A DNA stretch of 64,000 nucleotides, from the NCBI RefSeq assembly GCF_900143185.1, contig NZ_FSRQ01000001.1, forward strand, positions 1,798,001-1,862,000, written 5' to 3'. The stretch comes from Chryseobacterium scophthalmum. GTDB taxonomy: Bacteria; Bacteroidota; Bacteroidia; Flavobacteriales; Weeksellaceae. The notes below the pieces were generated by a model. It did no database searches and was not told where the DNA came from. It saw nothing but the letters and a program-made list of their open reading frames with translations. Made by a program: the position numbers and the translations under genes. Shown in pieces: positions 641 to 16,847 of this stretch (its first letter is position 1; each line of letters starts with the position of its first letter).

Positions 641-723
641 TTGTCATTACGATGAAGGAGAAATCTCTAAAAAAATTAAAAAGCTTAGATTCTTCATTTC
701 GCTTTGCTACATTCAGAATGACA
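641..723. repeat. Short inverted-repeat element, TTGTCATT/GAATCT family
   Basis: The left end reads TTGTCATT followed within about 20 bases by GAAATCT. The right end is AGATTC followed by AATGACA, the reverse complement of the left end. Size is about 83 bp with no coding capacity. It shares its terminal words with the element around the GIY-YIG gene (5962-6386) and the element at 16736-16847. It lies between the divergent ends of purK and the DUF1543 gene. Confidence 0.6.
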
Positions 724-5961: not shown

Positions 5962-5986
5962 ACAGTTTGTCATTCCGTAGGAATCT
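5962..5986 (+). repeat. Left 25-bp inverted repeat of the GIY-YIG element
   Basis: Exact reverse complement of 6362-6386. It contains the internal palindrome-like core TTCCGTAGGAA. Confidence 0.9.
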
Positions 5987-6000
5987 AAGCATTTTTAAAA

Positions 6001-6345
6001 TTACATTTCAAACAAATAATTCCAAAAATCTAAATTTGGATTAGTACATCTAATCAACTTTAATTTTTTACTCCTAGAAAAATTCTTAATCTCATTTTCC
6101 CTTTCAATTGCCTTATGAATCCATCCAAACTTTTCATAATAGATGAGAAACTCAACATTGTATTTAGCCGTAAAGCTATTTTCATTTTGTTTGGTGGAAT
6201 GTTGAAATAATCTTTTATGAAGATTATTTGTAATACCTGTGTACAAAACAGTTTTTCTTTTATTTGTAAGGATGTAAACATAGAATGTATAAATACCTTC
6301 AGAAAATTCTATCATTGTGTTTTGTGTTTTGTTTTTTATTTTCAA
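6001..6345 (-). CDS. GIY-YIG nuclease family protein (UPF0213/YhbQ type)
   Basis: A 114-residue single-domain GIY-YIG nuclease. The variant first motif is YVYILTNKRKTVLYTGITNN, with the catalytic Arg in LHKRLFQH and the catalytic Glu within KAIERENEIKNFSR. The C-terminus ends in NLDFWNYLFEM. All conserved residues of an active domain are present. The start could instead be the Met at residue 11 (MIEFSEGIYTFYVYIL). The gene is enclosed by perfect inverted repeats and may act on them; this is inference. Confidence 0.85.
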   Translation of the reverse strand: MKIKNKTQNTMIEFSEGIYTFYVYILTNKRKTVLYTGITNNLHKRLFQHSTKQNENSFTAKYNVEFLIYYEKFGWIHKAIERENEIKNFSRSKKLKLIRCTNPNLDFWNYLFEM

Positions 6346-6361
6346 ACTTTAAAAATTGCTC

Positions 6362-6386
6362 AGATTCCTACGGAATGACAAACTGT
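6362..6386 (-). repeat. Right 25-bp inverted repeat of the GIY-YIG element
   Basis: Exact reverse complement of 5962-5986. It lies upstream of the nuclease start codon, so it may also carry its promoter. Confidence 0.9.
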
Positions 6387-6653: not shown

Positions 6654-7715
6654 CTAAAATGTCATCACATCCTTCACTACTCCATTCTTCTGAGTATGTT
6701 GAAGCAATTCAGCTTCGATAAAAGTTTTTATTTTTTCCTCTGAACCATCATTTGGAAACAGTAAATGAACATTTGCACCCGCATCCAAAGTAAAGAATAA
6801 CGGCAAATTGGTTTCTCTTCTGAAATCCCAAATTTTATTGATTACTTCTAGAGTTCCTGTTTTCATTAAGATAAATGCAGGATCGCTCATCATCATCATT
6901 GCATGAAGCGTCAATGCTTCGTGTTCTACTAATTTTATAAAACGTTGCATATCTCCGCTTTTCAAGATCTCTTTCATAGGAACAAAATTTTCTCTTGCTT
7001 CCTGAAATCTTCTTTCTGCATAGGGATTGGTATTCATCAAACCATGGCCAACCGTTGAAGAAACGCTTTTTACACCTTCATGAATCAGCAAAACCCAATC
7101 GTTAAAATCTTTGAAAATATCATGAACTTCAGAATTCGGATATTGTACAGCAAACAAATCTGAACTCCCTTCAACCTCATCAGATTCGCCCCAAACAATC
7201 AAACCGTTGTAAAGACTTCTGCAAGCACTTCCGCTTCCTAATCTTGCTAAAAAAGATGCTTTTGTTAAAGATTCTTCATCAGAATTTTTTCCGGAAAAAC
7301 TTTCATCCAGTTTCATCAGACATTTTGCGATCGCTCCAAAACCTGATGCTGAACTCGCAATTCCTGAACTGTGAGGAAATGTATTTTCTGTTTTAATAAT
7401 ATATTTTCCTTTTAAAATCCAAGGAAGATACTGTTCAATATTTTTAAAATATTTTTCAATTTTTTCGGCAAATTTCACTTCTTCGTTTCCTGCAAGAAAA
7501 GTTTGTACAGAAAATATTTCATTGGCTAAAAATTCCATCTCTGTATTTGTTTTACAATGATTTAATGTAAAGCTGATACTCGGATTTGCAGGAATCTGAT
7601 CTTTATATTTCCCCCAATATTTAATCAAAGCAATATTTGACGGACAGCTTTCTGAAACCGTTTGATTGTTTATCGTAAATTCGTTATTCCCTAGAAATTC
7701 TTGTGTTGTTGTCAT
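6654..7715 (-). CDS. mvaD: Diphosphomevalonate decarboxylase
   Basis: This GHMP-kinase-fold enzyme catalyses ATP-dependent decarboxylation of mevalonate 5-diphosphate to isopentenyl diphosphate, the last step of the mevalonate route. At 353 residues it is near the usual length. Signatures are SNIALIKYWGK near residue 26, the GHMP phosphate loop PHSSGIASSASGFGAIA near residue 115, and DAGANVHLLFP near residue 315 with the catalytic Asp. Its presence indicates that isoprenoids are made through mevalonate, as in many Flavobacteriia. The next gene in the same direction is over 100 bp upstream, so it is probably a single unit ending at 6471-6495. Confidence 0.93.
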   Translation of the reverse strand: MTTTQEFLGNNEFTINNQTVSESCPSNIALIKYWGKYKDQIPANPSISFTLNHCKTNTEMEFLANEIFSVQTFLAGNEEVKFAEKIEKYFKNIEQYLPWILKGKYIIKTENTFPHSSGIASSASGFGAIAKCLMKLDESFSGKNSDEESLTKASFLARLGSGSACRSLYNGLIVWGESDEVEGSSDLFAVQYPNSEVHDIFKDFNDWVLLIHEGVKSVSSTVGHGLMNTNPYAERRFQEARENFVPMKEILKSGDMQRFIKLVEHEALTLHAMMMMSDPAFILMKTGTLEVINKIWDFRRETNLPLFFTLDAGANVHLLFPNDGSEEKIKTFIEAELLQHTQKNGVVKDVMTF

Positions 7716-16735: not shown

Positions 16736-16847
16736 TTGTCATTGACTTCATCGAATCTTCAATTTCTGAATGAAGCAAAGCGTAATGTAGAATTTATTAG
16801 CAAAATTAATGATTAGAATTGAGATTCTTCCTTCGTCGGAATGACAA
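16736..16847. repeat. Inverted-repeat element, TTGTCATT/GAATCT family
   Basis: The left end is TTGTCATT...CGAATCT and the right end AGATTCTTCCTTCGTCGGAA followed by TGACAA, with about 112 bp in total. It has no coding capacity. The ends match those of the GIY-YIG element at 5962-6386. It abuts the stop codon of the GNAT gene. Confidence 0.6.

Follow-up and report, generated by a model that had tools for sequence, protein, structure and literature searches.

Small Slx1-like GIY-YIG nucleases as probable dedicated enzymes of CGTC/TGTC-tagged REP hairpins

The GIY-YIG gene of Chryseobacterium scophthalmum and its flanking arms

The window analyzed here, a stretch of 64,000 nucleotides from the 4.47 Mb genome of Chryseobacterium scophthalmum, carries a small GIY-YIG nuclease gene, which is enclosed by two inverted arms of 39 nt each (Table 1). 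The arms are 92% complementary and their outer 25 nt (ACAGTTTGTCATTCCGTAGGAATCT) are identical, which bears out the perfect 25-bp inverted repeats that an earlier note on this DNA had placed directly at the ends of the gene, the full arms being longer. The stem of the window arm has 5 bp and its loop has 3 nt. The arm score was 30 at the real position, compared with 9-10 at four shifted pseudo-gene positions of the same locus. The GIY-YIG gene of this arm class (class A) adjoins the same neighbor gene in several species.

Table 1. Positions of the GIY-YIG element and of related features in the window
Feature	Position	Strand	Remarks
Left arm, class A, TGTC-tagged, 39 nt	5962..6000	+	Outer tag TTTGTC; hairpin core GTCATTCCGTAGGAATCT at 5969-5986; inner tail CTAAGC
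GIY-YIG nuclease ORF	6001..6345	-	114 aa from TTG; probably 104 aa from ATG at 6315 (6001-6315)
Right arm, the left arm inverted	6348..6386	-	Hairpin core 6362-6379
Short element with the same tag words	641..723		One class-C-like hairpin (687-722), other half degenerate; not a class A arm copy
Short element with the same tag words	16736..16847		One hairpin GTCATTCCGACGAAGGAAGAATCT at 16822-16845, other half degenerate
Neighbor gene, presumably diphosphomevalonate decarboxylase (by eye)	6654..7715		

The ORF has GIY-YIG (PF01541, E 1.1e-14) as its sole Pfam match. Translation probably begins at the ATG of codon 11, because the homologues P0003 and P0004 (94% and 90% identical) are 104 aa long and residues 1-10 of the structural model have a pLDDT below 50. 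Among 61 aligned sequences (114-aa numbering), Y35, R45, E83 and N102 do not vary and Y24 and G37 hardly do; from family knowledge, we take these six residues to be catalytic. The predicted structure (mean pLDDT 88) has its nearest fold in the UPF0213 protein 1zg2 (Foldseek E 2.1e-4) and its next, weaker one in Slx1-Slx4 (E 0.02-0.13), while the nearest solved sequence is also 1zg2 (profile E 1.3e-8). The product is accordingly a stand-alone minimal GIY-YIG domain related to 1zg2, as in the Slx1/UPF0213 group. It has no HUH Y1_Tnp match in Pfam, the Y1_Tnp genes of this genome being separate, and NCBIfam gave no match at 0.001. Among named loci, those that match the window protein best belong to Chryseobacterium, and 7,997 relatives were found among 7,998 scored candidates, many of which are named merely "GIY-YIG nuclease family protein". 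According to the accessible text of the 2006 superfamily survey (Dunin-Horkawicz 2006), prokaryotic Slx1/UPF0213 GIY-YIG proteins are without the C-terminal Asn.

The arm is a dispersed repeat. Its core TTGTCATTCCGTAGGAATC (at most 3 mismatches) occurs at 53 places in the genome, compared with 0 for a reversed-pattern control, and 30 of these arms form 15 head-to-head (convergent) pairs within 600 nt. Fourteen pairs (28 arms) are gene-free doublets with a span of 54-76 nt, and the fifteenth, with a span of 415 nt, holds the GIY-YIG gene. Only two divergent pairs (52 and 485 nt) are present and the remaining arms are single at the 3-mismatch limit, so that head-to-head dimers predominate among the 53 class A arms, as is the case in the CGTC superfamily of REPs. 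In 30 aligned copies, for which only the extension beyond the core is informative because they were chosen by the core pattern, conservation covers TTTGTCATTCCGTAGGAATCT plus a short tail and then ends. The tag TTTGTC is present in all 30, although the selecting pattern already contains TTGTC, and any outward target motif is weak, positions -2 and -9 to -6 relative to the arm being only mildly enriched. The earlier note had also regarded the short elements at both sides of the gene in the window as relatives of the arm; their tag and tail words are indeed common to it, but they belong to other stem classes and are not its copies, and their single-stranded folding is on a par with that of shuffled sequences (z -0.2 for 641-723 and 0.1 for 16736-16847). 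True short copies are found elsewhere in the genome, and the two that were folded as single-stranded DNA (L003 and L016) reach z values of -11.9 and -10.0 against shuffles.

Four GIY-YIG homologues are present in this genome, three of which are flanked by inverted arms, each of a different class. The arm classes are A (GTCATTCCGTAGGAATCT), B (GTCATTGCGAGGAGCGAAGCGACGAAGCAATCT) and C-like (GTCATTCAGAACGAAACG..GAAGAATCT). The fourth gene, which is distant and has a stop codon, shows no convincing arms, and no paired tagged hairpins were seen at the six loci of the distant clade to which it belongs (L034, L063-L067); this clade is excluded from our claim. Distant GIY-YIG genes also occur in tandem arrays with a spacing of ~361 bp in genomes G013 (C1:3684282-3685605) and G019 (C1:134701-135672).

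Repeat classes, gene classes and their distribution across bacteria

Gene classes (three) and arm classes (three) were compared across 173 genomes of the genus after each gene's own two arms had been subtracted. Genomes with gene A (41) have a median of 34 class A arms vs 6 in those without it (AUC 0.86, p 2e-12), and genomes with gene C (37) have a median of 8 class C arms vs 1 (AUC 0.84, p 3e-11). For gene B (52 genomes), the medians are 4 vs 1 class B arms (p 7e-5), with an AUC of 0.68 that is no better than the best off-diagonal values; all of these p values are uncorrected for ancestry. Off-diagonal AUCs range from 0.55 to 0.68, with four of six p values below 0.05, and are strongest for gene A with arms C and gene C with arms A (both 0.68, p 2e-4 and 5e-4). 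A joint regression gave t values of 7.3 (A), 3.9 (B) and 6.9 (C) for the cognate pairs and of 2.5 at most for all others. Each gene class is therefore linked to repeats of its own class, an association that is strong for A and C and weak for B. Gene A occurs in none of the 53 genomes with two or fewer A arms and gene C in none of the 66 without C arms, which is partly trivial because a gene's own arms count. At least 20 class A arms are retained in 27 of the 132 genomes without gene A, and these arms are read as relics; eight of the 52 gene-B genomes have two or fewer B arms in total.

The arm class also follows the gene tree. When the arm classes of 99 loci (six states) were placed on this tree, 12 changes were needed, whereas 300 shuffles required 49 on average and never fewer than 43, so that gene lineages tend to have their own arm class. 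From the 181 loci, 73 were dropped because the five stem letters were not the same on both sides, and states with fewer than three members were omitted; the tree (FastTree, 109 columns) leaves 48 of its 98 inner branches unresolved.

Some genomes of the genus show unusual arrangements of these arms. Genome G172 has 216 class A arm matches, by far the maximum of the genus, which is likely an expansion. A tandem array of class A arms with a period of ~164 bp lies in G065 (C1:1676992-1678820), with no class A gene at the threshold, and a dense class A arm cluster surrounds a GIY-YIG gene in G062 (C1:2247471-2249005). In G022 (C2:1505858-1507330), class B arms are in one orientation and ~365 or 709 bp apart.

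Flanking repeats are not restricted to the genus. A scan of genome contigs gave 80 named loci, which are similarity-ranked and not a random sample. Inverted repeats within 200 nt of the gene score at least 16 at 38 of these loci vs 1 of 606 shifted controls (42 loci score lower), and at least 12 at 53 loci vs 13 of 606 controls. Carriers include Flavobacterium, Halpernia, Alistipes, an Oscillospiraceae member with arms identical over 40 of 40 nt, and a Chloroflexi MAG; no arms were seen at the Patescibacteria locus L288. Where arms are present, they follow one plan, GTC tag, stem, loop, stem' and CT or CC, in which the tag is fixed and the stems vary with compensation (ATTCC/GGAAT, ATTGC/GCAAT, ATGC/GCAT, ACGC/GCGT and ATCC/GGAT). 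The first two stem pairs are A and T, with the exceptions ACGC, ACCC and, in Novosphingobium, GCCC.

The REPs were divided by Di Nocera et al. 2013 (PMC3733652, accessible text) into two superfamilies, GTAG-tagged and CGTC-tagged, of which the latter "apparently lack a dedicated transposase". Therefore, a plasmid collection (chromosome-sized records included) was searched for GIY-YIG genes with a Chloroflexi relative, by which 33 records were matched and 16 examined. Near-perfect inverted CGTC REPs, with scores of 22-44 where controls reach 12 at most, lie at the GIY-YIG genes of nine of these 16 loci, namely in Shinella (two), Rhizobium CIAT894, Neorhizobium, Azospirillum lipoferum, Novosphingobium aromaticivorans, Sphingobium (two, near duplicates) and Aeromonas caviae. 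In Neisseria gonorrhoeae, CGTCATTCCCGC..GCGGGAATC repeats, dRS3-like by our own reading, are found on both sides with a score of 21, and shifted controls reach 25. Flanks are weak in Planktothrix (12, with clusters of TGTCATTCTGAG repeats), Spirosoma (11) and two Sinorhizobium loci (16), and no flanking repeats were found at the Photobacterium (score 8; control 26) and Rhizobium tumorigenes loci. The tag is CGTC at the alphaproteobacterial, Aeromonas and Neisseria loci, and the alphaproteobacterial arms are by eye longer than the window arm. On the Planktothrix plasmid p1 (L317), the GIY-YIG gene and the TGTC-repeat clusters have an MmeI-type restriction-modification gene on one side and DISARM drmA on the other.

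Outward-tagged hairpins on both sides of the gene were counted at 63 of 96 loci vs 19 of 1090 controls (the 80 named loci and the 16 plasmid-collection ones, near duplicates counted), and at 61 of 86 genus loci vs 7 of 344 controls (those longer than 3.2 kb of 91 loci, with some genes present twice and up to five loci from the distant clade). The opposite orientation was also seen, at 28 of the 96 and 16 of the 86 loci, as is expected if doublets lie nearby.

Occupied and empty sites, and the role of the nuclease

The window element lies at the same site in G066 and is absent from G018, G101 and G189, while G001 and G109 have other DNA at this spot. The upstream flanks of 32 class A genes form 11 clusters, six of which have at least two members (short contigs may add false singletons), indicating that the class A gene has occupied several neighborhoods and was inherited within subclades. 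Inheritance of the gene is largely vertical, and at the window site it is vertical in one subclade. Fifteen short gene-free loci (minis) of the window genome were mapped in up to five relatives each, and seven with a coordinate gap were aligned in full. For 14 of the 15, at least one relative aligned across the arm position, so that movement looks rare. One mini-bearing and one mini-free relative were found for each of L003, L011, L013, L014, L016, L019 and L022, and at L016 the place of the class A doublet is taken in one species by a class-C-like one.

Outside the genus, gene and doublets part sufB from sufC by 617 nt in Azospirillum lipoferum, compared with a gap of 87-129 nt in A. ramasamyi, A. 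oryzae and B510; A. brasilense is also without the gene. At the spot of the Sphingobium gene, two strains of that genus have a gene-free CGTC hairpin. The hunt for empty sites included an alignment of 244 kb of the window genome with 220 kb of G109. No clean target-site duplication was seen at the window site, the seven aligned minis or the Azospirillum and Sphingobium sites, where more than the arms distinguishes sites with the gene from those without it. Inside the genus, presence/absence variants were found, but their edges are blurred by divergent AT-rich flanks, and hence no duplication is claimed. The genome-wide search that the earlier note had called for thus yielded copies with and without the gene, in the own genome and in related ones; the outcomes named there as contrary to its proposal, no copies in relatives or only syntenic copies of vertical descent, do not describe the several neighborhoods and the gene-free counterparts found here.

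Small prokaryotic Slx1-like GIY-YIG proteins are probably the dedicated enzymes of CGTC/TGTC REPs, as RAYTs are of GTAG REPs, and would act by cutting the cognate hairpin. The element may be described as a pair of inverted REP hairpins with a TGTC tag (each made up of the GTC tag, a stem, a loop, stem' and a CT tail) that enclose a GIY-YIG gene. A REP doublet might turn single-stranded or be extruded as a cruciform, the cognate nuclease would recognize the fixed tag together with the class-specific stem and cut beside the hairpin, and the doublet, whether its loop contains the gene or not, could then be excised, copied or pasted elsewhere with the help of host replication and repair. That a structure-specific nuclease occurs together with hairpins whose tag is fixed and whose stems differ by class points to cutting of its own REP in the single-stranded or extruded form, and the link with copy number supports the idea that the repeats spread by such cutting. 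What the sequences show is the association at the flanks, the pairing of gene and repeat classes, stems that covary beside a constant tag, the conservation of the GIY-YIG residues and the existence of sites with and without the gene; binding, cutting and a spread of the repeats through cutting are inferred from these.

The main rival, which we consider unlikely, is that the nuclease is a host structure-specific repair enzyme, the Slx1 of bacteria, which lies next to its substrates and resolves or prunes the hairpins and cruciforms of REPs but does not spread them. Its kinship with UPF0213 and, weakly, with the branched-DNA nuclease Slx1-Slx4 is consistent with this role, as is the vertical inheritance at the window site, and Dunin-Horkawicz 2006 (accessible text) cites a prediction of a repair function for prokaryotic Slx1 homologues. 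Pruning, however, should lower the number of copies, yet gene-bearing genomes have more of the cognate repeats, and the bracketing of each gene by its own class would be left unexplained. It is rather improbable that the gene is a selfish passenger which lands in REP doublets in a homing-like manner and tracks the abundance of repeats spread by something else. The gene-bearing element does resemble a mini doublet with a gene in its loop, and the gene-free hairpin at the same spot in Sphingobium fits a landing site; the cognate class pairing nevertheless makes the nuclease the simplest candidate for the spread, no NUMOD domain was matched in Pfam in the seven proteins scanned, and six relatives reached at most 21.7 bits with the group I intron endonuclease model, whose cut-off is 56.

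Two further readings were rejected. Movement of the arms by RAYT-type HUH transposases of the same genome, the GIY-YIG gene being incidental, is very improbable. Four RAYT-like Y1_Tnp genes (L035-L038) are present, and the repeats of L038 (GCGTTCCGTAGGAACGC + TATCT) have the core TTCCGTAGGAA in common with the class A arm, a similarity that may stem from convergence or exchange; the inverted repeats next to each of the four genes are nevertheless of other kinds, and their 3.3-kb loci contain none of the five specific GIY-YIG-class arm patterns that were looked for (at most 3 mismatches). According to Di Nocera 2013 (PMC3733652, accessible text), no gene for a tyrosine transposase had CGTC repeats at its flanks. 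Intergenic hairpins next to genes are common in general, so that the arms of this small gene might be repeats that arose by chance or bidirectional terminators of the ordinary kind, but this is hardly credible in view of the 53 copies against none for the control, the outward tags, the compensated stems and the recurrence across phyla.

A broader picture, which we regard as somewhat favored, would be that single-domain Slx1-like GIY-YIG nucleases run pan-bacterial families of self-spreading palindromic repeats. This would be a second, HUH-independent origin of REPs and REPINs, in which orphan CGTC/TGTC REPs, such as the alphaproteobacterial ones and perhaps dRS3 of Neisseria, gain their missing enzyme, and in which tag and class-specific stem are read by the protein, the stem coevolving with it. 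REPs are among the common short bacterial repeats, and one of their two superfamilies was without a known enzyme in 2013 (PMC3733652, accessible text). If our reading is true, the search for this enzyme is reduced to simple cleavage assays in vitro, a function may be gained for the very large GIY-YIG protein family, and the REP strategy would have arisen on two or more occasions from nucleases that are not related. How a GIY-YIG domain reads DNA structure and sequence could, moreover, be studied on the naturally occurring combinations of protein clade and hairpin stem, which would be a ready data set.

Comparison with known systems

In the accessible text of Di Nocera et al. 2013 (PMC3733652), CGTC REPs are described with a tag that is often TGTC (or CCTC), A/T in the first two stem pairs, a stem of 8-9 bp, a loop of 4-5 nt, a tail CCA and a predominance of head-to-head dimers. 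Their hosts are mainly alphaproteobacteria, but also Bacteroidetes, and the superfamily includes dRS3 of Neisseria and RPE-4 and RPE-6 of Rickettsia. The CGTC/TGTC tag, the first A-T stem pairs and the head-to-head dimers are also found here, and Azospirillum lipoferum and Novosphingobium, both named in that text, carry such repeats round a GIY-YIG gene. However, in the class A arms of Chryseobacterium the stem has only 5 bp and the tail is CTAA-like, in place of 8-9 bp and CCA. Owing to this difference in stem and loop, the window arm is regarded as a related short-stem variant that belongs to no listed CGTC family. The Neisseria repeats surround the gene but are equally dense in shifted controls.

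The protein resembles the Slx1-like/UPF0213 group (PDB 1zg2, 1ywl) in being a minimal stand-alone GIY-YIG domain, with a match in both sequence and fold. Unlike here, no link to palindromic repeats is made for this group in the accessible text of the 2006 survey, where the strings 'palindrom' and 'flank' do not occur. The system further shares a mobility-associated GIY-YIG nuclease with homing endonucleases and non-autonomous short inverted-repeat copies with MITEs, but differs from them in the absence of NUMOD domains and of above-cut-off intron-endonuclease matches, and no clean target-site duplication was seen at the sites compared. In the open-access literature, as far as its texts are accessible, no link of GIY-YIG genes to REPs was found. 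GIY-YIG and rayt are listed separately in a pangenome table in the accessible part of PMC9465073, and 'rayt' occurs only within an author name in that of PMC10928387. The accessible text of a 2025 REP survey has no 'GIY', 'nuclease' or 'transposase', and that of two papers citing Di Nocera 2013 no 'GIY'.

The closest parallel is with REPtrons, in which RAYT (TnpA-REP) enzymes serve GTAG REPs and REPINs. TnpA-REP cuts single-stranded tagged REPs next to the hairpin (PMC8266576, accessible text). In both systems, a nuclease gene is bracketed by inverted tagged hairpins, gene-free doublets are dispersed, and a genome may hold several gene classes, each with its own repeat class. The GIY-YIG gene is likewise flanked, class by class, by the dispersed hairpin that it is presumed to serve, most weakly so for class B. 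The analogy with RAYTs and REP doublets drawn in the earlier note therefore holds for the anatomy, that is, a genome-wide REP-like family, gene-free doublets, class pairing and recurrence across phyla, while vertical inheritance at the window site departs from it. The enzyme here is a GIY-YIG (Slx1-like) and not an HUH (Y1) protein, the tag is TGTC/CGTC and not GTAG, and both cleavage and strand transfer are putative in the GIY-YIG system. We propose that it follows the logic of REPtrons with an unrelated enzyme and a different repeat superfamily, and that its nucleases may be non-homologous counterparts of RAYTs.
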